DNA from: Aneurinibacillus soli | GTDB lineage: Bacteria > Bacillota > Bacilli > Aneurinibacillales > Aneurinibacillaceae | Length of the DNA: 64,000 nt | Direction: 5' to 3' | Assembly: GCF_002355375.1 (NCBI RefSeq) | Contig: NZ_AP017312.1 | Location: forward strand, 656,001 to 720,000 | Shown: positions 5,815-57,848 of the stretch, piece after piece | Layout of the letters: every line of letters begins with the position of its first letter | Position numbering within the stretch: the stretch's first letter is position 1 | Position numbers and translations under genes: made by a program | Notes under the pieces: generated by a model | What the model saw: only the letters and a program-made list of their open reading frames with translations | Database searches by the model: none | Told to the model about the DNA's origin: nothing

Positions 5815-5891
5815 AAAATAGGACTCACTTCCTCATGTTTTTGCAGTACAATGGTTATAAAACTTGTGCGCATACGGGGGAGGAAAGTCTT

Positions 5892-6329
5892 GTGTCATTA
5901 AATGTTGAAAATTGCGTTCGTTGTGGCAGTCTATTTCGCCGGGTTCGCCAGCCACTTTGTCCGAACTGCCTGAAGAAAATCGACGAGGAATACGAGAAGT
6001 GCTACAAGTTTATACGCAAGAAAGAAAACCGGGCTTGCAACGTTCATGAACTGAGTGAAGGAACGGGTGTTTCGCTTCAGCAGATCACGACGTTTATTCT
6101 AGAAGGCAGGCTTTCGATTGATAACAATCCGAATATTGAATATGCCTGCAAGAGTTGCGGGGGTCCGACCCGTTCTGGCTCACTCTGTCAGAAGTGTGTA
6201 GGCAACATCAAAAAAATGGCTGGATACATGCAAGAAGACAAGCAGAGACAGGAGGAGCTTGTTGAAGAAGAACGCCGCAGTAAGTCCGGTTTTTATCAAG
6301 TTGGACGGGATGAACCGAGAAAAAGTTAA
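5892..6329 (+). CDS. yvyF: Flagellar-operon protein YvyF (TIGR03826-like)
   Basis: 145 residues from a GTG start placed eight bases after a GGGGGAGG site; the longer frame upstream lacks one. The N-terminal CXXC ribbon (CVRCGSLF ... CPNCLKKI) is followed by a winged-helix-like segment (NVHELSEGTGVSLQQITTFILEG), then a second CXXC pair (CKSCGG ... CQKCVG) and a charged tail. This layout matches the YvyF/TIGR03826 proteins found just upstream of flgM in Bacillales; B. subtilis YvyF is reported to influence FlgM activity. It is followed by a hairpin terminator that overlaps the predicted sigma-D promoter of flgM. Confidence 0.9.
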   Translation: MSLNVENCVRCGSLFRRVRQPLCPNCLKKIDEEYEKCYKFIRKKENRACNVHELSEGTGVSLQQITTFILEGRLSIDNNPNIEYACKSCGGPTRSGSLCQKCVGNIKKMAGYMQEDKQRQEELVEEERRSKSGFYQVGRDEPRKS

Positions 6330-7287: not shown

Positions 7288-8991
7288 ATGACATCTACAT
7301 TTTCAGGATTAGAAATAGGGAAGCTTGGCCTGTTTGCTCAGCAGACAGCGTTAAATACGACGGGACATAACATCTCCAATGCCAACACGGAAGGCTATAC
7401 AAGGCAACGGGTGAATATGGAGGCAATGCCAGCCTTCCCCTATCCGAGTGCGGTAAATAATCGTTCGGCAGGTCAGGTAGGAACTGGGGTGTGGGTCAGT
7501 AGCATCGAGCGATTGCGGACAGCGTTTCTTGATTTGCAGTTCCGGGGCGAGAATAAAAACGCTGGGGAATACGGGGCCCGTACAGATACGCTGGAAAAAA
7601 TCGAGAATATTTTAAATGAGCCGACAGACAGTGGTCTGCAGAAGACGATGGATGACTTCTGGGGTGCCTGGCAGCAGCTTTCGGCTAATCCAAAGGATAC
7701 ATCTGCACGAGAAGTGGTGCGCCAGAAGGCGACGACGATGACGGAGTCGTTTGCTTTTATTCAGCGTGAAATGATACAACAGCAGAACAATGTGAATGAA
7801 GACATCGGTACAAAGACGACAGAGATTCAGGGATATCTGGATACCGTTGCAAAATTGAACGCGCAAATCAATGATATTGTTCCACACGGTTATACTCCGA
7901 ATGACCTCTATGATCAGCGGGACCTGATTCTTGATAAGCTTTCGAAATCTATGGATATCGAAGTCAAGCCTGTTACGAACAATGGTAAAGATACCGGAAT
8001 GGTAGATGTATATATTAAGGGAACCAATGTCAACCTTGTAAGTGAGAAGGCGGCGAGTGTGGTAAAAGCAGAAGCATCTACGGCTGCCCCACCAAATAAT
8101 ACGTTACGTGACGGCACAACCACGAAACTGGATATTAACATTTACTGTGCGACACTGCGTTCAGGGACTACACCACCTCAGGCACCAGATCAATCGAATT
8201 TAGCGACGTGGACTCCAGCTAATCCTAATTATCAATTCTCGGAAGGCGGCGAGTTGAAGGGATTACTGGCATCACGGGATACGATTCTACCAGACTACAT
8301 GACGCGCATTAGTAATCTGGCTACTAAAATCGCAACAGAAGTAAATAAAGTCCATAAATCCGGTAAAGATCTGGATGGGAATCAGCAGGGGGGCGTAGAT
8401 TATGCACCGACGATTACCCCGATACCGCCTTCTACAAAGTCCGCACTCCCGTTCTTTGTAAGCAAACAGGCGTACGAAACCGCTAAAGTAGCTTCTCCAA
8501 CTAATCCTAATCCACACAATGACAATGATCCGACTACATGGAACTGGATGAACACCCCTCCGACGGGACCGGGGGATATGATCGTGAACCCGCTTATCAT
8601 GAAGTCCGTCAACAAAATCGCAGCTTCTGATCCAAACTCAGGAACAGGGGATAACAAGACGGCACTAGCCATCTATGCACTAAAAGAACAAACAAACATG
8701 GTTTTCGGTGGTGCTGGTGGTGAAACTGGATCGTTTGATAGTTATACCCGTAGTATCATTTCTAAGCTTGGAAGTGAGACGCGGGAAGCACAGCGTATGA
8801 AAACGAATGTGGAGTCTCTTACGTCCGAAGTGGATAATCGTCGTCAATCGGTTTCAGGTGTTTCGCTTGACGAAGAGATGTCCAATATGATCAAGTTCCA
8901 GCATTCGTACAGTGCATGCGCTCGCACGATTACCGCTATGGACGAAATGTTGGATCAAATTATAAATAAGATGGGACTAGTAGGTAGATAG
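7288..8991 (+). CDS. flgK: Flagellar hook-associated protein 1 FlgK
   Basis: 567 residues, somewhat longer than the roughly 500 of B. subtilis. The N-terminal D0 domain (STFSGLEIGKLGLFAQQTAL, NTTGHNISNANTEGYTRQRV) and the C-terminal D0 helix (VSLDEEMSNMIKFQHSYSAC, ending INKMGLVGR) are classic. The central region contains a proline/asparagine-rich insert (about residues 380-430, PTITPIPPSTKS ... PTNPNPHNDNDPTTW) that probably forms a surface domain. It is the first junction protein between hook and filament. It follows its chaperone gene flgN and precedes flgL with a 24-base gap. Confidence 0.97.
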   Translation: MTSTFSGLEIGKLGLFAQQTALNTTGHNISNANTEGYTRQRVNMEAMPAFPYPSAVNNRSAGQVGTGVWVSSIERLRTAFLDLQFRGENKNAGEYGARTDTLEKIENILNEPTDSGLQKTMDDFWGAWQQLSANPKDTSAREVVRQKATTMTESFAFIQREMIQQQNNVNEDIGTKTTEIQGYLDTVAKLNAQINDIVPHGYTPNDLYDQRDLILDKLSKSMDIEVKPVTNNGKDTGMVDVYIKGTNVNLVSEKAASVVKAEASTAAPPNNTLRDGTTTKLDINIYCATLRSGTTPPQAPDQSNLATWTPANPNYQFSEGGELKGLLASRDTILPDYMTRISNLATKIATEVNKVHKSGKDLDGNQQGGVDYAPTITPIPPSTKSALPFFVSKQAYETAKVASPTNPNPHNDNDPTTWNWMNTPPTGPGDMIVNPLIMKSVNKIAASDPNSGTGDNKTALAIYALKEQTNMVFGGAGGETGSFDSYTRSIISKLGSETREAQRMKTNVESLTSEVDNRRQSVSGVSLDEEMSNMIKFQHSYSACARTITAMDEMLDQIINKMGLVGR

Positions 8992-11828: not shown

Positions 11829-13496
11829 ATGATTATCAATCACAATATGTTGGCACAGAACTCTTACCGTCAATTAGGTATCAATAATGCTAACACAGCA
11901 AAATCCACAGAGAAATTGGCTTCTGGTCTTCGCATCAACCGTGCAGGCGATGATGCTGCAGGTCTGGCAATCTCTGAAAAAATGCGCGGTCAGATCCGTG
12001 GTCTCGACCAAGCTAGCCGTAATGCCCAAGATGGTATTTCTATGGCTCAAACAGCTGAGGGTGCATTGAACGAGACACACAGCATCCTTCAACGTATGCG
12101 TGAATTAGCTACACAATCTGCAAACGGTACGAACACTAACGATGACCGTGGAGCGATTCAGGATGAAATGAATCAGCTGACTTCTGAAGTTAACCGTATT
12201 GGTAACACAACTGAGTTCAATACGCAAAAACTTCTGAACGGTGGCATGGCTTCAACTGATGGAGCAAAAATTACGAAAGCAACAAGTGCAACGGTTACCG
12301 CTGCAGGTACAGTAACTGCAGCTACATCTAATGCTAGTATTATTGTTGATGGTAGAACTTTTGATGTTTCGGGGATTGTTGTTGCAGGCACTACTGATGC
12401 TGATGCGAAAGCGGCGGCATCAGCACTTGGAGATAAAACATCAGGTGGGGTTAAACTCTCTGAGGTAGTAGACATTAAAACTGATGGCGCTGGAAAATTA
12501 GTTTTTACTGCTAAATCACAAGGCCCATCAAGTTCAATTAGCTTTAGTGCTGATGATGCGGCACTTGGTATTACTGCTGTTAGTGATAAGGCTACTGGTA
12601 CTCCGACTACAATGGAGCGTGCAGGTCTTCAAGCTACAAATGCATTAGGAAAAGCTGCCGATACCACTATTAATGCTGGAGATACAATTAAAATCACAGT
12701 AGGTAATGATAGTGCGGTTACTGTTAATCTAAACACTGGTACAGCTAATAAAACATACAAAACATTCTCAGGTGTAGACCAAAATGAAAAAAATGCAGCT
12801 ATGGCTGACGTAATTCGTGACGTTAACGCTGCTTTACAAGATGCAGGTTTAGGCGGAAAAGTAACTGCATCTCTTTCTAAGGATAATGAACTTCAGTTTA
12901 TCTCTGAGACAGGTAAAGATATTTCTGTAGCAAATGGAACAGGTACACCTCTTACTGCACTAGGTACTGGATTTGGTGCTGTTAAAAATGTAGAGCAAGT
13001 AGTTGGAGCAGGTGCACAAGGTCCTGGATTTAAAACTACTTTCCAAATTGGTGCGAATACTGGACAAAGCATGGCATTACAACTAAATGATATGCGTGCA
13101 AATGCACTTGGTATTACAGGAAATGCAGGTCAAAAAGGCTTCACTTCTGCTAACGGTGTAACTAACGGAACAACAGATGTTAAAGGTGAAGCAGCTCTGA
13201 ATGTAATGACAAAAGAAGATGCGTCTAATTCAATTACAGCGGTTGACAACGCAATCAAAAAGGTTTCTGATGAGCGTGCAAAATTGGGTGCTGTTCAAAA
13301 CCGTTTAGAGCACACAATCAACAACTTGAACACTTCTTCTGAAAACTTAACTTCTGCTGAATCTCGTATCCGTGATACAGATATGGCGAAAACAGTTATG
13401 GAAAACACAAAAAATGGTATCCTTGCTCAGGCTGCTCAAGCAATGCTTGCACAAGCGAACCAAGCACCACAACAAGTACTTCAATTACTCCGTTAA
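11829..13496 (+). CDS. hag: Flagellin (major filament protein)
   Basis: 555-residue flagellin, roughly twice the B. subtilis Hag length. Conserved N-terminal D0/D1 ([40 protein letters not shown]) and C-terminal D1/D0 (NAIKKVSDERAKLGAVQNRL, LTSAESRIRDTDMAKTVMEN, ending QQVLQLLR) flank a large Thr/Ala/Gly-rich variable domain (about residues 140-440) of visibly lower GC content than its flanks. It has its own sigma-D promoter and a CsrA-controlled leader, and is followed by a strong terminator. It assembles the filament after export with FliS as chaperone. Confidence 0.97.
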   Translation: MIINHNMLAQNSYRQLGINNANTAKSTEKLASGLRINRAGDDAAGLAISEKMRGQIRGLDQASRNAQDGISMAQTAEGALNETHSILQRMRELATQSANGTNTNDDRGAIQDEMNQLTSEVNRIGNTTEFNTQKLLNGGMASTDGAKITKATSATVTAAGTVTAATSNASIIVDGRTFDVSGIVVAGTTDADAKAAASALGDKTSGGVKLSEVVDIKTDGAGKLVFTAKSQGPSSSISFSADDAALGITAVSDKATGTPTTMERAGLQATNALGKAADTTINAGDTIKITVGNDSAVTVNLNTGTANKTYKTFSGVDQNEKNAAMADVIRDVNAALQDAGLGGKVTASLSKDNELQFISETGKDISVANGTGTPLTALGTGFGAVKNVEQVVGAGAQGPGFKTTFQIGANTGQSMALQLNDMRANALGITGNAGQKGFTSANGVTNGTTDVKGEAALNVMTKEDASNSITAVDNAIKKVSDERAKLGAVQNRLEHTINNLNTSSENLTSAESRIRDTDMAKTVMENTKNGILAQAAQAMLAQANQAPQQVLQLLR

Positions 13497-18516: not shown

Positions 18517-18894
18517 ATGCTAGAAGATACATTTGTTCATAAGGAACGATGTTTGAATGAGTTAAAACAAGAAACGCAGAAACAACTTGCGGCAGTGCGT
18601 ATAGAGGATGTATCCGGCTTTATACGAGGTGTTGAGAGATGTGAGCAGCTGATTGCAGAGCTAAAGGAAATAAATATTCAAGCTTCCTCCGTACTCTCCG
18701 AGAAAGAAAGTGTTTTTGAGGAGATCGGTCAGGATATTTTGCGTATGCGTTCAGAGATATCGGATCTCTTACCAACCTGGCGTGAGAGATTGCGTAGTCA
18801 GATGCTTCGTGAGCAGGAGGGAACCCGGATCAAACAAGTTTATGATGATGATGATGAGTATGTCCCCCCTATTTTTTTAGACAAGAGAAAGTAA
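18517..18894 (+). CDS. fliT: FliT-like flagellar chaperone
   Basis: 125 residues beginning directly after the fliS stop. Helical (VERCEQLIAELKEINIQASS, EIGQDILRMRSEISDLLPTW) with an acidic DDDDEYVPPIFLDKRK tail. Position after fliD-fliS and helical pattern fit FliT, chaperone of the cap FliD, though sequence similarity in this family is weak. It ends six bases before a strong terminator. Confidence 0.7.
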   Translation: MLEDTFVHKERCLNELKQETQKQLAAVRIEDVSGFIRGVERCEQLIAELKEINIQASSVLSEKESVFEEIGQDILRMRSEISDLLPTWRERLRSQMLREQEGTRIKQVYDDDDEYVPPIFLDKRK

Positions 18895-18899
18895 TTAAA

Positions 18900-18950
18900 G
18901 GCTTCTTTCGGTCGTGATACCATTCACACCGAAGGAAGCCTTTTCTCTTT
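18900..18950 (+). terminator. Strong intrinsic terminator
   Basis: Thirteen-base arms, GGCTTCTTTCGGT (18900-18912) and ACCGAAGGAAGCC (18928-18940), pair with one wobble; a TTTTCTCTTTT tract follows. Confidence 0.9.
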
Positions 18951-18956
18951 TAGCGT

Positions 18957-18983
18957 GAAAAGTAGGGTGATTATTTCCGATAG
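18957..18983 (+). promoter_or_regulatory. Sigma-D promoter of the FliK-like gene
   Basis: GAAA (18957-18960), exact 15-base spacer, TCCGATAG (18976-18983). One mismatch in the -35 from TAAA. Predicted start near 18990, about 30 bases before the ATG. Confidence 0.65.
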
Positions 18984-19020
18984 TAATTATAAGTAGAATG
19001 GGTACGGAAGGAGGATTCGT

Positions 19021-22000
19021 ATGCAAATTTCTGATTTTCAGCCTCGTGCGAATCAAAGTAGAGTAGCTGGGACGCCAGCCGAACTGAGTGTTGGTCAAAG
19101 TGTCATGGCATCTGTTAAACAAAAGGTTTCAATGGGAGAAGCAGTTATAGAGGTAAACGGCCAGGAATATCGAGCTGTTTTTGAAAAGGAAGCTCCTGCG
19201 GAAGGGAAGGTGCAGGTTCAAATTACGGGTCGGAATGCGGGTATGCTTCAGGTACGTACAACCGGAGATCCGGCTGAGACTCTCCCGGTTGAAGAACCGT
19301 CGGTGGAGAAGGTTCTTCAACAAGCCGGGGTAAAGGCGACACCAGAAATGAAGGAGCTTGTCCAGCGGTTTGCACAGCAGCAAATTCCTGCAACGAAAGA
19401 AATGTTGCAGTTTGCACAGCGAATTATACAGAAAGGAGAGGGAACGGTTTCGCAAAAGCTGGATACATTAGTAGCTATGGCACAGAAAGAGATTCATTTT
19501 ACGAGTAAAAGCTATGATGCTGTTTTTCGGGTACTGCATGGACCATCGTTGGATAAAATCTTAACGCAACTTGCGAAGGAAGCCCCTGATTTGATACCGA
19601 AAGTATCAGCCTTGCAAACAGCGACCCGAACGGTTAGTCAGGCGTCCGTCTCGGTACCTGAGGCTAGACAACAGGTACAGCCAGAACCAGCGGCTCAAGT
19701 ATCGCGCAATCTGGACGTGTTGAAGCAAGCGATGGAGCGAGGTGTACCGCTGTCCAAAGAAGCGGTACAGAAACTGGTGAGCCAACTGAGGGAAGGAGCG
19801 GATAAAGCGTCCCTTCCTGTTGAAGCGCGTCGAGCCGTGGAGCAGGTAGTGAAACAGGTGGAACAGGCGATCCGGGAGACACCGACGACAGAGAAAGCGG
19901 TCGCACCGCAAACGATCGCTCGCACGGTAGATCGCGGAGCGATTGAGCAAGCGGTACGTCAGGTAGCATCAGCTCGTACATCTCAGACAGTGGAACCGAG
20001 TGTACAAGTGGACCAGACGATGAAGACTACACCGAAGGAAGAAACACGGGTACAGTCGGAGCCAGCGGCCCAAGTATCGCGTAATCTGGACGTGTTGAAG
20101 CAAGCGGTGGAGCGAGGGGTGCCGCTGTCTAAAGAAGTGGTACAGAAACTGGTGAGCCAACTGAGAGAAGGAGCGGAAAAAGCGTCTCTTCCTGTTGAAG
20201 CGCGTCGAGCCGTGGAACAGGTAGTCAAGCAGGTGGAACAGGCGATCCGTGAGACTCCAGCGACAGAGAAAGTGATCGCACCGCAAACGATCGCCCGCAC
20301 GGTAGACCGGGGAGCGATCGAGCAAGCGGTTCGTCAGATAGCATCGATCCGTACTGCTCCGACGAAGGAACCTAGCGTACAGGCAGATCAGACGATGAAG
20401 ACTATGCCGAGGGAAGAAGTGCGGGTACAGTCAGAACCGGCGGCACAAATATCGCGCAATCTGGACGTGTTGAAGCAAGCTGTGGAGCGAGGGGTGCCAC
20501 TGTCCAAAGAAGCGGTACAGAAACTAGTAAGCCAACTGAGAGAAGGAGCGGATAAAGCGTCCCTCCCTGTCGAAGTGCGTCGTGCTGTGGAACAGGTGGT
20601 CAAACAGGTGGAACAGGCGATCCGTGAGACTCCAGTGACAGAGAAGGTGATCGCACCGCAAACGATTGCCCGCACGGTAGACCGGGGAGCGATCGGGCAA
20701 GCGGTTCGTCAGATAGCATCGACTCGTACCGCTCCGACGAAGGAACCTAGCGTACAGGCGGATCAGACGATGAAGACTATGCCGAGGGAAGAAGCGCGGG
20801 TACAGCCAGAACCGGCGGCACAAATATCGCGCAATCTGGAAGTATTGAAGCAAGCGGTAGAGCGAGGGGTGCCGCTGTCCAAAGAAGCGGTACAGAAACT
20901 GGTGACCCAACTGAGAGAAGGAGCGGAAAAAGCGTCCCTTCCTGTCGAAGTGCGTCGTGCTGTGGAACAGGTGGTCAAACAGGTGGAACAGGCGATCCGT
21001 GAGACTCCAGCGACAGAGAAAGCGATCGCCACGCAAACGATCGCCCGCACGGTAGACCGGGGAGCGATCGAGCAAGCGGTGCGCCAGGTAGCATCGGCCC
21101 GTACCGCCCCAACGGTGGAAGCGGATGTTCAATCGGCATCAGCGATACGTACAGCATCAGCAGGAGAGACACAGTCACCGACCAAAGCAGATGAGGCTAT
21201 ACAAAAGTTAGCAAATCTTGTTATTGATATCCGTACAGCTGGAAAAATTACGCGTAGCCAGATTGAAGCGTTACAAAAATCGGTGGCAGATGTGACGGAA
21301 GCAGCCGGAATTCGTCCGGAGCTGGCCAAAGACATTAAAGACTTGCTGACTCGACTAAGCAAAGACTTACGCATGTCGATGAGCTATGAAGCGGTAGGGC
21401 GCAGCACCGAGGCCAAAGCTATGGTCGACCGCAGCCTGGATACTGTCGTGAAGATGTTCAAGCTTCCTGTAACTGAGGTATTAGCTACTCGTCAGCAATC
21501 AACAGATATGGGAGCTGACGTGGTAGGGAAAGACGGGACTGATCCAGCATTTCTACGCCCGATGAGTGATACATTGCTCAAATTGGGGAGTATTATCTCG
21601 CTGGCCCGTCAGGAATTGCAGGGAGCGCTCGGAGCGATGGATACGAGCGATGCGAATGGCTGGCGTGATCCAGGGAAAATTGTCGCAGATATGGCCGGGG
21701 CAATCCGCACTGCAGCTACCCGTGAAGGGCTGTCTCGTGATGATGTAAAGCAAATCGAACAAATCCTCACGCAAGCGGAGCAGGCTGTATCCAAACCACA
21801 GCTTGACAAGGACGCATTGGTACATGACGTTAAAGAGCTGGAGCAATTCCTCACCAATTCCGGCGAGCGTCTGGCTGCCCTCACAGCGGTACAGACGGCG
21901 AACTTCGAACGAGTGACGCAATATATCCCTGATCGTTTGCGGGAAGTAGGGGAAGAGTTCAAACAGGTGAAAAAAGAAATTACGAATAATGTAGAGCGGG

Positions 22001-23058
22001 TGATCCAGTTTTTGCAGCAAAAAATCCCGCAGGCACCCTCGTACGTGCAGCGTATCGTCGAACCGACAATCGAAATGGTAAACCGCCTGGTGACAAAAGG
22101 CGAATTCGCGTTGTTTGCGGATATGGAGTTTGAGCATCAGGTATTGCGAATTAGCGGGGACCTCAATCAGGTTAAAGGCTTGCTTGATAAAGGGAAGCAG
22201 GATGAAGCTCTTCAGATTTTTCATCGTGTTCGCGGTGAGCTTGATAAGTTGAACTGGCAGCCTGCGTATACGAAGGTAGAACGATTCTTTTCGAAAATGA
22301 CCAGTGATGGTGATATGCAGAATCCGCTCCAAACATATGGCCAGCAGTGGCGGGATGAATCGTTGAGCGGTCGCGGTGTGCAGGAGATGATGCGTGGCAT
22401 GGGATTAAACCATGAACGGGATGCGATAGACTGGATGGCGCGACGAGAAGGGCACATGAGCATGGGACAGGATGGATCGAATCAGCAGGATCGCCCGCCG
22501 CACAACTTGAAGTCGATGCTGATGGATGGTATGGAAGGAAATGTATCGCCGCGTGCCCGAGAAATGATGGAGCATGCCTTATCAAATCTGACAGGGCAGC
22601 AGCTGCTGTCGAAGCAGGATTCCGGTATGCCTATGCAGACAATGCAGGTGCAGATTCCGCTTCCGTGGGAAGAAGGGCAGCAGACGGTACAGATGCAAAT
22701 TCAGTCACGCACGAACGGGGAACAGATGGACTGGCAGAACTGCAATCTGTTTTTCTTTCTTGATACTCCGAAATTTGGTGAGATGGGCGTATCGGTTACG
22801 GTAGTAGACCGGGATATGTCTGTTCGGGTGCAAAATGACCTGCCTAATATTGAACAGGTGTTTACACCGTATATACCGCAGTTGAAACAGGAACTGCAAA
22901 ACATGGGGTATCATGTAAACGGTGTGACGTTTACACCAGTAGCCCAGCCAGCATCGGAAATATCCGAACAGGCAGCTGTGCCAACTGTTGATGTGGCGGT
23001 TGCCCGCAAAGCAGCTATGGCCTATAACAGCCGAGAAGGGTTGGATTTCTCTGTATGA
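19021..23058 (+). CDS. Giant FliK-like protein (YlqG type) with 125-residue tandem repeats
   Basis: 1345 residues after GGAAGGAGG. The N-terminus (residues 1-85) has a short beta-rich domain with VGQSVMASVKQKVSMGEAVI and VQVQITGRNAGMLQVRT. Residues 219 to about 700 are four near-identical 125-residue helical repeats (SRNLDVLKQAVERGVPLSKE, VQKLVSQLREGAEKASLPVE, RRAVEQVVKQVEQAIRETP). A long helical stretch follows. The C-terminus (about 1230-1310: FFFLDTPKFGEMGVSVTVVD, RVQNDLPNIEQVFTPYIPQL, LQNMGYHVNGVTFTPV) resembles the FliK/YlqG substrate-switch domain. Its stop overlaps the FlhB-C-like gene (ATGA), the same pair as ylqG-ylqH in B. subtilis. It could act as a hook- or rod-length ruler, or a specialised export switch. 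Confidence 0.8.
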   Translation: MQISDFQPRANQSRVAGTPAELSVGQSVMASVKQKVSMGEAVIEVNGQEYRAVFEKEAPAEGKVQVQITGRNAGMLQVRTTGDPAETLPVEEPSVEKVLQQAGVKATPEMKELVQRFAQQQIPATKEMLQFAQRIIQKGEGTVSQKLDTLVAMAQKEIHFTSKSYDAVFRVLHGPSLDKILTQLAKEAPDLIPKVSALQTATRTVSQASVSVPEARQQVQPEPAAQVSRNLDVLKQAMERGVPLSKEAVQKLVSQLREGADKASLPVEARRAVEQVVKQVEQAIRETPTTEKAVAPQTIARTVDRGAIEQAVRQVASARTSQTVEPSVQVDQTMKTTPKEETRVQSEPAAQVSRNLDVLKQAVERGVPLSKEVVQKLVSQLREGAEKASLPVEARRAVEQVVKQVEQAIRETPATEKVIAPQTIARTVDRGAIEQAVRQIASIRTAPTKEPSVQADQTMKTMPREEVRVQSEPAAQISRNLDVLKQAVERGVPLSKEAVQKLVSQLREGADKASLPVEVRRAVEQVVKQVEQAIRETPVTEKVIAPQTIARTVDRGAIGQAVRQIASTRTAPTKEPSVQADQTMKTMPREEARVQPEPAAQISRNLEVLKQAVERGVPLSKEAVQKLVTQLREGAEKASLPVEVRRAVEQVVKQVEQAIRETPATEKAIATQTIARTVDRGAIEQAVRQVASARTAPTVEADVQSASAIRTASAGETQSPTKADEAIQKLANLVIDIRTAGKITRSQIEALQKSVADVTEAAGIRPELAKDIKDLLTRLSKDLRMSMSYEAVGRSTEAKAMVDRSLDTVVKMFKLPVTEVLATRQQSTDMGADVVGKDGTDPAFLRPMSDTLLKLGSIISLARQELQGALGAMDTSDANGWRDPGKIVADMAGAIRTAATREGLSRDDVKQIEQILTQAEQAVSKPQLDKDALVHDVKELEQFLTNSGERLAALTAVQTANFERVTQYIPDRLREVGEEFKQVKKEITNNVERVIQFLQQKIPQAPSYVQRIVEPTIEMVNRLVTKGEFALFADMEFEHQVLRISGDLNQVKGLLDKGKQDEALQIFHRVRGELDKLNWQPAYTKVERFFSKMTSDGDMQNPLQTYGQQWRDESLSGRGVQEMMRGMGLNHERDAIDWMARREGHMSMGQDGSNQQDRPPHNLKSMLMDGMEGNVSPRAREMMEHALSNLTGQQLLSKQDSGMPMQTMQVQIPLPWEEGQQTVQMQIQSRTNGEQMDWQNCNLFFFLDTPKFGEMGVSVTVVDRDMSVRVQNDLPNIEQVFTPYIPQLKQELQNMGYHVNGVTFTPVAQPASEISEQAAVPTVDVAVARKAAMAYNSREGLDFSV
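19675..21120 (+). repeat. Four tandem 375-bp coding repeats
   Basis: Units start at 19675, 20050, 20425 and 20800, exactly 375 bases apart (125 codons), each opening with a GTACAG codon pair. Long stretches are identical at the DNA level, for example the GCAAGCGGT and GAACAGGCGATCCG segments. The fourth unit loses similarity near 21120. Confidence 0.95.
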
Positions 23059-23474
23059 TTTATAAACATTTTCAATCTCCGAAGAAAAAAGCAGGAAGTT
23101 CTACGCGTGCAGCTGTTATTCGCTATGACAAAGACAATGGCAAAACACCGACGATTGTGGCACAGGGGCGGGGAGCTGTAGCTGAAAAAATTATTGCGAA
23201 GGCGAAAGAGCACGATATCCCGATGCAGGAGGATGCACTACTGCTGGACAATTTGTTGCAGTTGGATTTAGGAAGCAATGTTCCGCCCCAGTTGTATCAG
23301 GTTGTAGCAGAGGTGTTGTTACTTGTTAGACGGGCTAATGTCGGCGCTCCAATCTCTGCACCTGCATTTCCTAAAAATCTGGAACAAACGCCATATTGGG
23401 AAGCAGAAGAAGTAGATGATGATGATGATGAAATTAGTGTGGAGGATTTACTACAGGCTGTTCGGGGGATATAA
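23055..23474 (+). CDS. FlhB C-terminal-domain-like protein (YlqH/FlhX type)
   Basis: 139 residues. Residues 16-95 (RAAVIRYDKDNGKTPTIVAQ, GRGAVAEKIIAKAKEHDIPM, DALLLDNLLQLDLGSNVPPQ) match the cytoplasmic C-terminal domain of FlhB, the export gate switch, but no transmembrane part is present and the autocleavage NPTH motif is missing. An acidic tail follows (DDDDD). The start overlaps the stop of the FliK-like gene. FliK and FlhB-C interact in the hook-to-filament switch, so this stand-alone pair is likely to modulate export specificity. Confidence 0.85.
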   Translation: MIYKHFQSPKKKAGSSTRAAVIRYDKDNGKTPTIVAQGRGAVAEKIIAKAKEHDIPMQEDALLLDNLLQLDLGSNVPPQLYQVVAEVLLLVRRANVGAPISAPAFPKNLEQTPYWEAEEVDDDDDEISVEDLLQAVRGI

Positions 23475-23567: not shown

Positions 23568-24083
23568 GTGGACGATGTCCTGAATCCACAAGATGTGGAA
23601 CTAAGCGATATTCATGATCGCCCCGAACTAATTACGGCGCTTTTATATAAGAAGCTATTAGAAAAACTAGACGCTGCCATCATGTTGATGCCACAGCGCC
23701 GTTATCTAGAAGCCAATCGGGCAATGCAGCACTGCAACGATATTCTAACCCGTCTTGGATTCGGAATTAAATATGAAGCAGGCGTGATTGCAGACCAACT
23801 GGAGCTTTTGTACAAATACATGTTTGATCGTATTCATGAGGCGAACATGAAGAAAGATATTTCCTTGTTGCGAGAAGTGCGTCGTCTTGTACGGGAACTG
23901 GATGAGGCTTGGAGCCAGGCGCTGCAAAGCGTAAAGCAAGCAAGTGTATCAGTTTCTCAGGATGGAGCGACTGCGCGTCCAGTTGCATCACGCATGGGAA
24001 CCCCGCGCTTTAATCCATACCAGCAGCGGGAGATGGAGCAGGAAGTTTATCAGCATGAACAAGAAATTCATTTAAAGAAGTAA
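23568..24083 (+). CDS. Second FliS-type flagellin chaperone
   Basis: 171 residues from GTG 23568 after GAGGGAGGAA. The core has the FliS helices (ITALLYKKLLEKLDAAIMLM, NRAMQHCNDILTRLGFGIKY, QLELLYKYMFDRIHEANMKK) also found in the first fliS, but with different loops and an added tail of about 40 residues rich in Gln/Glu (PRFNPYQQREMEQEVYQHEQ). It is followed 30 bases later by the second flagellin gene, so it is probably its dedicated chaperone. Its own sigma-D-type promoter makes the pair an independent late unit. Confidence 0.88.
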   Translation: MDDVLNPQDVELSDIHDRPELITALLYKKLLEKLDAAIMLMPQRRYLEANRAMQHCNDILTRLGFGIKYEAGVIADQLELLYKYMFDRIHEANMKKDISLLREVRRLVRELDEAWSQALQSVKQASVSVSQDGATARPVASRMGTPRFNPYQQREMEQEVYQHEQEIHLKK

Positions 24084-24113
24084 AAATGTGATAATCATAG
24101 AGGAGTGAAGATT

Positions 24114-26114
24114 ATGCGTATTAATCATAACGTTTATGCATTGGATGCATACTCGAAATTAAACAAGAACCAAGCTAATACAGGAAAGGCATTGGAGAAA
24201 TTATCATCCGGTCTTCGCATTAACCGTGCAGCGGATGATGCAGCGGGCCTGGCCATCTCTGAAAAAATGCGCGGTCAAATTCGTGGTCTTGACCAGGCAG
24301 AGAGAAATGCGCAGGATGGCATCGCGCTCATTCAGACAGCAGAGGGTGCGCTCGGGGAAGTACATGACATGTTATCTCGTATGCGTGAGTTGTCTGTACA
24401 AGCAGCGAACGGGACACTGACTCAGTCTGACCGCGGTGTTATCCAGGACGAAATCAATCAGCTTCGTGAACAGATTGACCGTGTAGGAAATGACACGCAG
24501 TTCAATACGAAGAAGCTGTTAAACGGTAGCTTATCTGAGAATGCGGATATTCGTTCCTTGTATGGTGATGTTAAGTATTCAAAGAATGGAACAGGACTGA
24601 AGAATATTAAAGTGGATCCTGCCAGTGTGTTACCTCAGGATGTTTACAGTCTTAGTGTTGTTACGAAGAGTAAAGTGCTGAACATGGATGGCATTGAGGA
24701 CACGTACAAGACGGGTCTTGAGAATTTCCTGACTTCCCCTGATACGACTTTAGGAAAAGGGGATTATAAAATTGAATTAACAGCTCAGGTCGGAGGAAAT
24801 GTTGGTACTACAGGTTTGAGTTTAACGAATTCACAATTAGAAGATGGAGATTATTGGGTTGATAATGCTACACAAAATGTGTACCTTTTAAATGCGGCAG
24901 GAACAGGTCCTGCAGGTAGTTCACTTGGTGCAGCAAGTTCCTTGAACGTAGGCACAGCTACAGCAAGTGGGAAATTTACACAAGCAACTACATACACGTT
25001 AAACGTGCTTCCTAAGTCAGGTGGAGCACCGATTGCACAAGCAAGTAATGTAAAGTTTGGTCAAGCTGGGATTGACTTTAAGGATGGTGTTGCAGCAAGC
25101 AGTACATTGACAGTCGATCAGTCGAAACTTGCTGATGGTAATAAATTAACGATCAATGGAAAGACAATCGGCTTTTATGATAATACTGGAACATACGGCA
25201 CTAATGCAGCTGCCATAACAGGTATGGGCGTAGATTTTGCTATTTCCTTACAAAGTGTAACGTCTAATAGTACCTTGGCTACTGCGATTGCAGGTTTGAG
25301 TATCCCAGGTATTACGTTATCAGCAGCCGGGGCAAATGTTACAGTCACAGCACCTGGAACAGGTGGTAATGCCGTTACTACAGCTTTTACAGGCACTGGT
25401 GCAGTAACAGGTGATACAGGTGGTGGTAAGAGCATTGGTCTTACTGTTGATTTTACGAATTCGTTAGCGGGATATGTAAAACGTGGTGGAGCATTGCCGA
25501 CAACGCCACAGATTCCGTACCACTCATTTACAATTGGTGAGCTTGATCGTACCAGTATCATTTTAAAAGATAGCAAGGATAAAATTATCGCCCATCAGTT
25601 TGCAGATAATGACCGTAAATTCGTTGAATTACAAGGAACAGGGATTTCTTTTGGTACAGGTGTGCTCTCTAATGGTGAAAAAGCGACCAACATCGACATC
25701 CGCCGAACATTAGAAGATGCATCTGTTACGTTCCAGATTGGTACCAATGCAGGTGAAATCGTGGCACTGGGTGTTGGCGATATCCGTTGTGCGTCACTTG
25801 GTATCGACAAGTTCAAGCTCACAGATGAGACATCAGCATCCAATGCGATTGCGATCATCGACTCTGCTATCGACAAGGTATCTGCTGTACGTTCTAAACT
25901 CGGGGCCTATCAGAACCGGATGGAGCATACGGTCAACAATATCACACAAGCAAATCAAAACCTGACAGCAGCCGAGTCCCGCATCCGTGATGCAGACATG
26001 GCCAAAGAAATGACTGATTTCACGAAGTACAATATCATCAATCAATCTGCAACCGCGATGCTCGCACAGGCAAACCAACTGCCACAGGGCGTACTGCAGT
26101 TGCTCAAAGGCTAA
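24114..26114 (+). CDS. Second flagellin, large variable domain
   Basis: 666 residues; ATG 24114 is chosen over GTG 24105 because GAGGAG lies correctly upstream. Conserved N-terminus ([40 protein letters not shown]) and C-terminus ([51 protein letters not shown]) are flagellin. The roughly 390-residue central domain is unlike that of the first flagellin, with beta-rich Thr/Gly segments. No CsrA-type hairpin is seen in its leader, so it may escape the FliW-CsrA control acting on hag. Possibly forms a distinct filament section or a surface-growth filament. Confidence 0.94.
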
Positions 26115-57140: not shown

Positions 57141-57848
57141 TTAGTTTGTAGCTGTTTCTTGATGTTTTTCGCCTTTAGCTGGGAACTTGATGCCGAGAGC
57201 TTCGAGTTGAGTTTTTGCTTCATCTTTTGTTAAGGTACCCGCTTTTTCTTGCTCAAAAATGGCTTTTACTTTTGCTTTAGTGGCATCGTCAAGTTTATTG
57301 AGAAAACCTTGATGACGTTCTGGTGCTTTGATGCCAAGTGCTTCTAGTTGGGCTTTTGCCTGTTCATGAGTTAAAGTACCGGCTTTTTCTTGATCGAAAA
57401 TAGCTTTTACTTTTTCTTTTGTAGCAGCATCAAGGTTAGCGAAGTGATCTTGACGTTCTGGCAGTTTGATGCCGAGAGCTTCGAGTTGAGTTTTTGCTTG
57501 GTCATGAGTTAAAGTACCGGCTTTTTCTTGATCGAAAATAGCTTTTACTTTTTCTTTTGTAGCAGCATCAAGGTTAGCGAAGCGATCTTGATGTTGTGGC
57601 GCTTTGATGCCGAGAGCTTCGAGTTGAGTTTTTGCTGCTTCTTGTGTTAGTGTACCGGCTTTCACTTGATCGCGAATGGCTTTTACTTTTTCTTTCGTTG
57701 CAGTATCAAGAGTAGCATGTGCATGGTGTCCAGCATGTTGTTTCACTTGGGATGGTGATTGTGTAGGTGCATCAGCAGCAAATACAGATCCAACGGATGC
57801 AAGAGCGAATACAGCACCTAATGCAGTCGCAACAATTTTCTTTTTCAT
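57141..57848 (-). CDS. Secreted protein of four 46-residue helical repeats
   Basis: 235 residues on the minus strand, ribosome site AAAGGAGATGG before the ATG at 57848. A signal peptide (MKKKIVATALGAVFALASVG, cleaved after SVFA), a His/Gln-rich linker (HAGHHAHA), and four repeats at residues 47-92, 93-138, 139-185 and 186-235. Each reads LDxATKEKVKAIxDQxKAGT, LTxxxAKxQLEALGIK, then a variable polar linker. The GTLT helix-turn resembles SHOCT or DUF2680-like modules, but no family assignment is firm. It is the only gene on this strand in the right-hand half, between csbA and uvrB. Confidence 0.85.
   Translation of the reverse strand: MKKKIVATALGAVFALASVGSVFAADAPTQSPSQVKQHAGHHAHATLDTATKEKVKAIRDQVKAGTLTQEAAKTQLEALGIKAPQHQDRFANLDAATKEKVKAIFDQEKAGTLTHDQAKTQLEALGIKLPERQDHFANLDAATKEKVKAIFDQEKAGTLTHEQAKAQLEALGIKAPERHQGFLNKLDDATKAKVKAIFEQEKAGTLTKDEAKTQLEALGIKFPAKGEKHQETATN

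Follow-up and report, generated by a model that had tools for sequence, protein, structure and literature searches.

A FliK-like protein with an expandable repeat spacer, encoded in a flagellin-linked gene block of Aneurinibacillus soli and its relatives

The tandem repeats of a giant FliK-like gene in Aneurinibacillus soli lie in a spacer between two conserved ends of the encoded protein. The gene was found in a stretch of 64,000 nucleotides (contig NZ_AP017312.1, positions 656,001 to 720,000), referred to as the window. The protein combines a conserved N-terminal domain with a C-terminal switch domain; its gene is paired with one for FlhX, lies in a conserved block with a second fliS and a flagellin gene, has a sigma-D-type site upstream, coexists with a separate canonical fliK, and changes in length through repeat number. 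We infer, with about even confidence, that the protein acts as an accessory regulator of export at the late, filament stage, with an expandable helical tether, and not as an ordinary hook ruler.

The gene (P0001; 19021..23058, plus strand, as are its parts, its upstream elements and the genes of its block) encodes 1345 residues. Its conserved N-terminal domain (19021..19590), delimited by alignment and modeling, consists of a small beta barrel (residues 27-80) and helices (residues 92-187). Beyond the repeats follow a helical core (21193..22305), the end of which is the conserved FADM block (residues 969-1095, from alignment and HMM placement), and a TGQQLL motif (22591..22608). The Flg_hook domain, the type III switch domain of the FliK C-terminus, comes next (residues 1243-1305; 22747..22935), and the protein closes with a conserved tail, GLDFSV (23038..23055). 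In a YlqG-like paralogue the corresponding motif and tail are TGQQLM and GVDFRI. With a Flg_hook (PF02120) score of 31.8 bits, just above the curated cutoff of 29.8, the protein is placed by sequence in the FliK superfamily. Among 14 orthologues, the window's own included, five scored above the cutoff (the window protein, G002, G008, G010 and G025) and eight below it; for G012, Flg_hook went unreported at E 0.001.

The N-terminal structure model (468 residues, 14 sequences) comprised the small barrel, the helices and two repeat units of five helices each, with pLDDT of about 92-98, and linkers between the units with pLDDT below 50; its pTM was 0.34, so the mutual arrangement of its domains is not given by the model. 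The C-terminal model was weaker (pLDDT 67.8, pTM 0.29). Foldseek neighbors of its beta domain included the switch (SS) domain of PscP (probability 1.00, E 0.087) and the C-terminal domain of FliK (probability 0.98, E 0.59); no match to the C-terminal model, switch domains included, reached E <= 0.001, and its lowest E-values belonged to helical proteins (the alpha-catenin M domain and vinculin), not to switch domains. The description of the gene as FliK-like in the initial annotation is upheld by the Flg_hook match and by these two type III switch domains. The repeat-unit model had no clear relative in Foldseek, with nothing at E <= 0.001.

Tandem Repeats Finder placed the array at 19674-21114, with a period of 375, 3.8 copies, 90% matches, 0% indels and a score of 2245, whereas 20 dinucleotide-preserving shuffles of the window yielded 6 rows in total and a best score of 63. 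The same program, unit comparison and a unit profile delimit unit 1 (19675..20049, 125 codons), unit 2 (20050..20424), unit 3 (20425..20799) and unit 4 (20800..21114, its similarity reaching about 105 codons); every unit lies in the reading frame of the gene. The coordinates and the 375-bp period read earlier from the letters are thus confirmed, but the units are not exact or near-identical copies: pairs of units are 85.6-92.0% identical in DNA (with 318 bp of unit 4 used), 2-3 (92.0%) and 3-4 (91.5%) being the closest pairs and unit 1 the most divergent. Values of dS between units (0.20-0.49) indicate that the array is older than a freshly made duplication, and dN/dS of 0.11-0.22 points to purifying selection on the units; calling them recently duplicated was an overstatement. 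Low-scoring Pfam and NCBIfam matches inside the repeats (among them MS_channel_3rd above cutoff and stomoxyn below) were discarded as an effect of helical, repetitive sequence.

In the 13 other orthologues, Tandem Repeats Finder reported a single 18-bp repeat and no comparable near-regular DNA array. The near-regular DNA array is confined to the window's lineage, although some orthologues contain divergent members of the unit family. Plain self-BLAST conceals such repeats, and windowed BLAST was used in its place. Own-unit profiles identified 4 units in the window protein, 8 in G006 (7 at a stricter setting), 4-5 in G003, 3 in G005, 2 in G002, 1-2 in G004 and a partial match of 44 residues in G007, and nothing at E 0.001 in the remaining seven of the 14. 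Repeat number, the constancy of which in all strains and species would have counted against the initial annotation, is not constant, ranging from 0 to 8 units among family members.

To this set we added relatives from a profile scan of named genomes, for which a single-protein query had found none. The scan, whose patterns favor the window-type branch, returned 107 relatives, of which the best 80 were kept; judging from record names, these are presumably 6 Aneurinibacillus, with the others from Bacillales and some Clostridia (Heliobacterium, Sporosalibacterium, Syntrophomonadaceae). Seven of the 80 loci encode the same proteins as seven of the 14 orthologues, leaving 87 distinct proteins in 94 rows. 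Self-similar repeats were present in 39 of the 94 rows and, at the threshold used, absent from 55. In 38 of the 39 (two of the 38 being duplicates) they lay between the N-terminal domain and the FADM block, and an early view from few genomes, that arrays occupy two different sites, was dropped. Across the 83 distinct proteins in which each of the three domains was found, this spacer measured 387 +/- 293 residues (29-1505) and the next one, after the FADM block, 85 +/- 42 residues (52-396); G031 and G051 combine a short first spacer with a long second one. Intact relatives span 601-2072 residues, mainly through the first spacer; the shortest row (L116, 388 residues) lacks the N-terminus.

DNA arrays with Tandem Repeats Finder scores of at least 100 occurred in 12 of the best 80 of 107 loci. 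When the strong arrays, those of the window and of ten loci, were mapped onto a tree built from the conserved blocks, at least 8 changes of state were required; L110 and L112 scored below 300 and were excluded. The clearest case of a change in length is the pair L089 and L094, whose proteins are 98.5% identical except for one 321-residue block, flanked on either side by DNA of 98.3-98.5% identity; 321 residues is the sum of the two Tandem Repeats Finder periods at these loci, 207 and 114 residues. The earlier proposal that unit number alters protein length is borne out by this pair. A 193-residue block also sets apart two records under the name Halalkalibacter oceani, but the DNA of these two is only 84-93% identical and they are therefore not strains in the strict sense. 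Length gaps between related records include 1122 versus 1443, 947 versus 1139 and, for L119 and L123, 908 versus 1709 residues. L096 and L112 were rejected as a length pair because L112, at a locus end, lacks its N-terminus. For a possible shared ancestry of the 125-residue Aneurinibacillus unit and the 95-residue Bacillaceae unit, comparison of profiles gave probabilities of 5-25%, versus 0.05-1.3% in ten shuffled comparisons.

Several loci showed irregularities of their own. In L121 (5153, 8152) and L135 (7089, 7612) the FliK-like gene appears divided between two open reading frames, which may reflect a frameshift, a genuine break or faulty sequencing of the repeats. The records of L089 and L094, named Bacillus methanolicus DE0196 and Robertmurraya siralis, share long stretches of DNA with 88.6-98.6% identity, so one of the species names may be wrong.

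The complete genome (one contig, 4.12 Mb) contains three FliK-like genes and three FlhB or FlhB-C genes; two further hits, at E 0.35 and 0.69, were taken as noise. A canonical fliK of 434 residues follows FliI- and FliJ-type genes and precedes flgD and a FlgE/F/G-type gene; a complete flhB lies farther along. A YlqG-like gene of 490 residues, scoring below the Flg_hook cutoff, follows RNase HII and is accompanied by an FlhB-C gene of 94 residues. In a small local database the window protein matched the YlqG-like paralogue at 7e-16 and had no match to the canonical FliK at 1e-4. Its C-terminal similarity, the shared TGQQL motif and GVDFxI-type tail, and an FlhB-C gene without NPTH directly behind place it by sequence with the YlqG-like branch. 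Open-frame lengths in 10 family genomes were 785-1939 residues for the window type, 424-499 for canonical FliK and 488-592 for the YlqG type, and canonical fliK and full flhB are kept in all 10 of the family genomes that have the FliK-like/flhX pair. In G009, the sole family genome lacking a window-type gene, neither Flg_hook nor FlhB gave a match at E 0.001. The place in the hook operon beside flgD is occupied by the 434-residue FliK, and the window gene is not the hook-length FliK of this genome. The suggestion that its repeats measure the hook or rod finds no support here, since a separate canonical fliK of near-constant length stands beside flgD whereas the window-type orthologues vary.

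Examination of the genomic context revealed a common gene order. The FliK-like gene is overlapped by 4 bp by flhX (23055..23474, 139 residues), followed by a second fliS, fliS2 (23568..24083, 171 residues, with CCGATA 56 bp upstream), and a flagellin gene (24105..26114, 669 residues), all identified by domain search. FlhX matches PF01312 positions 263-335 with 55.2 bits and NCBIfam flhB_rel with 87.1 bits, under the cutoff of 117.35; it is the FlhB cytoplasmic domain with neither the transmembrane part nor NPTH, which is replaced (the FlhB C-terminal-only class). NPTH was found in 0 of 88 FlhX rows. The order FliK-like, flhX, fliS2, flagellin holds in 13 of the 14 genomes, the window's own among them; the exception is G004, with an inverted flagellin and no fliS2 found.

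Among the best 80 of the 107 relatives, flhX follows the FliK-like gene in all 80 loci, with the 4-bp overlap in 74; flhX plus fliS2 occur in 73, and the complete four-gene block, with flagellin, in 72. Six loci have the pair with no fliS2 and flagellin behind it (L085, L101, L113, L130 and L136, from Anoxybacillus, Parageobacillus and Thermolongibacillus, and L100). L081, which encodes the G004 protein, lacks fliS2 and has an inverted flagellin; L090 has fliS2 and ends before any flagellin. Given the six pair-only loci and L081, the link to flagellin is not absolute. The first five of these pair-only loci hold the shortest FliK-like proteins (601-647 residues), the truncated L116 apart. In G012 (locus L073; the L129 protein, Ammoniphilus resinae according to its record), two flhX genes (5847-6161 and 8288-8584) flank the FliK-like gene. 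The window also has a second flagellin upstream (11829-13496, 555 residues) with a CCGATA site of its own, and all three Flagellin_N matches of the genome lie within the window.

Upstream of the FliK-like gene, an inverted repeat noted by eye, GGCTTCTTTCGGT ... ACCGAAGGAAGCC, and a T-rich stretch behind it (18900..18945) form a possible terminator of fliD-fliS-fliT; a terminator scan with a loop limit of 8 did not call it, as its loop exceeds that limit. A motif scan identified a candidate sigma-D promoter at 18957..18982, consisting of GAAA (18957-18960), 15 bp and TCCGATAG, which contains CCGATA (18977-18982) 44 bp upstream of the start codon. CCGATA is the core of the sigma-D -10 element. 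In the window's upstream region alone the best promoter match was not above shuffles (26% equal it), and a search for sigma-70-type promoters at 18800-19100 gave none. The argument for late expression therefore rests on conservation of CCGATA and not on the window's single match.

CCGATA occurs 44-91 bp upstream in 12 of the 14 orthologues, counted after the start codons of G001, G002 and G006 had been moved to the conserved position, versus 2 of 198 other open reading frames of at least 150 residues, one of these two being the window's other flagellin. For the best 80 of 107 relatives, with one locus omitted for too little upstream DNA, the site precedes 43 of 79 FliK-like genes (38 of 73 when Aneurinibacillus is left out) versus 7 of 528 other frames of at least 200 residues; this second background consisted of mechanical frames, with both strands included. 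In the same loci CCGATA precedes fliS2 in 41 of 73 cases, flgL in 1 of 29, fliD in 0 of 8, and 12 of 93 flagellin frames, many of the 93 sitting directly behind fliS2. The whole sigma-D pattern with a perfect -35 was present at 21 of the 79 FliK-like genes, and CCGATA was missing at 36, which, like the unremarkable match in the window's own region, counts against the reading proposed below. In the general order of flagellar gene expression, sigma-D-class genes are made after hook completion. From this motif evidence, the FliK-like gene is probably late and made with flagellin, and such timing would further weaken the hook or rod ruler assignment.

The window protein resembles canonical FliK in its C-terminal Flg_hook switch domain, in an N-terminal part joined through a spacer and in FlhB-C as presumed partner. 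Canonical FliK differs in having its own gene beside flgD, with 434 residues and a length near-constant in the family, in a sequence devoid of the TGQQL motif or GVDFxI tail, and in the absence of an overlapping free FlhB-C gene; it also has no sigma-D-type site just upstream, a weak point since the gene lies inside an operon. The RNase HII-adjacent pair, to which we assign the B. subtilis names YlqG and YlqH, shares the C-terminal half, the TGQQL motif, the GVDFxI tail and an adjacent NPTH-less FlhB-C gene; it differs in its length of 488-592 residues in 10 family genomes, in its position beside RNase HII rather than flagellin and, in the window genome, in that no sigma-D-type site was found just upstream. 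The ruler portion of YscP and PscP, which govern needle length in type III secretion, is regarded as extended and not as a string of helical domains. These two proteins share the switch-domain fold at the C-terminus, with the PscP SS domain among the Foldseek neighbors (E 0.087), but belong to the injectisome. FlhX proteins, presumably including HP1575 of H. pylori, likewise carry the FlhB cytoplasmic C-terminal domain without the membrane part; here, in difference, the protein is from Firmicutes and lies within a fliS and flagellin block. HP1575 is entered in one table as 'homolog of FlhB protein (flhB2)' (PMC2864241), and FlhX appears in a list of flagellar components in Actinobacteria (PMC10746217). 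In open-licence PubMed Central literature we found no description of the FliK-like/flhX/fliS2/flagellin block.

We propose that the repeats are an expandable spacer within the FliK-like protein of this block. Made late, together with flagellin, the protein would bind FlhX, and perhaps FlhB, through its C-terminal switch domain, so that the export gate is held or adjusted during filament assembly, and its N-terminal domain would bind another partner. The small helical domains on loose linkers would act as a tether between the two ends, and unequal crossing-over would change the number of domains and thereby the tether length. By analogy, FlhX probably holds the switch end; gene pairing and domain homology are what point to this interaction. 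The reading of an adjustable, two-ended tether draws on Salmonella FliK, for which one account describes a ruler part, a flexible linker and an FlhB-binding switch domain, with linker length influencing binding (PMC6972891).

A role specific to flagellin might predict that the two proteins co-vary in length. Raw Spearman coefficients were 0.38 (n = 71) and 0.34 (n = 78), and tree contrasts gave r = 0.48 (permutation p 0.0024; L112, L121 and L135, in which the N-terminal domain was not found, were included and the truncated L116 was omitted). With a floor on short branches, r fell to 0.18-0.23 (permutation p 0.05-0.12), and without L089, L094, L119 and L123 to 0.02; 6 of 12 sister pairs agreed. 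We rejected co-variation on the grounds that it collapses under either treatment, and this failure counts against the filament-stage regulator that we favor.

The protein may instead be a ruler after all, exported and stretched through the axial channel, with repeat number setting the length of the hook or another axial structure stepwise. Its FliK-like C-terminal domain would fit, as would length change concentrated in a single spacer flanked by two conserved ends, repeated gain or loss of arrays, and a report that N-terminal insertions and deletions in Salmonella FliK lengthen or shorten the hook (PMC6972891). Yet a canonical FliK of near-constant length is already present, the candidate promoter is of the late type, the units are predicted to be folded helical domains, unlike an extended chain, and the almost twofold gap between L119 and L123 would require the measured structure to change in large jumps. 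We regard this as an unlikely explanation; should the protein nonetheless act as a ruler, the ordinary hook is hardly what it would measure.

It is similarly doubtful that the spacer is a length-tolerant, near-neutral linker whose arrays turn over by slippage or recombination without effect, only the ends being important. Wide length differences between related records, the unstable correlation with flagellin length and the rows without self-repeats are all compatible with such a linker, but the window units are in frame, under purifying selection and confidently folded in the model, and the second spacer is not comparably variable. Least probable, in our estimate, is a spare FliK/FlhB-C pair that substitutes for the canonical one at the gate as a backup of the hook-to-filament switch. 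The domain types are the same, and 'flhX-fliK' is named jointly in a passage on Nitratiruptor (PMC9321776); this idea is opposed by the retention of canonical fliK and full flhB in every one of the 10 family genomes with the pair, by a canonical FliK that is not length-variable there, and by the conserved FliS and flagellin neighborhood, which points to a late role.

Bacillales and some Clostridia keep an extra FliK-like/FlhB-C pair, mostly ahead of fliS and flagellin, which suggests a filament-stage control step not described before. In the textbook picture, exemplified by FliK, each flagellum has one ruler and one switch. The FliK-like protein varies more than threefold in length among relatives, the longest through repeats, whereas canonical FliK is near-fixed across 10 family genomes; these natural variants, one pair of them otherwise near-identical, are suited to tests of what a FliK-type spacer measures. 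As a speculation that we hold only tentatively, Bacillales may have a second, filament-stage export switch with an adjustable tether or ruler, in which a sigma-D-made FliK-like protein and a soluble FlhB-C decoy would jointly control flagellin export and take a measure other than that of the hook, unit number being an evolvable setting.

A further repeat gene of the window, on the minus strand (57141-57848), encodes a 235-residue protein. It has weak family matches only (Pfam, NCBIfam), a start that by eye resembles a signal peptide, and a run of about four repeats of 46 residues each (138-bp period, 3.8 copies, 83% matches).
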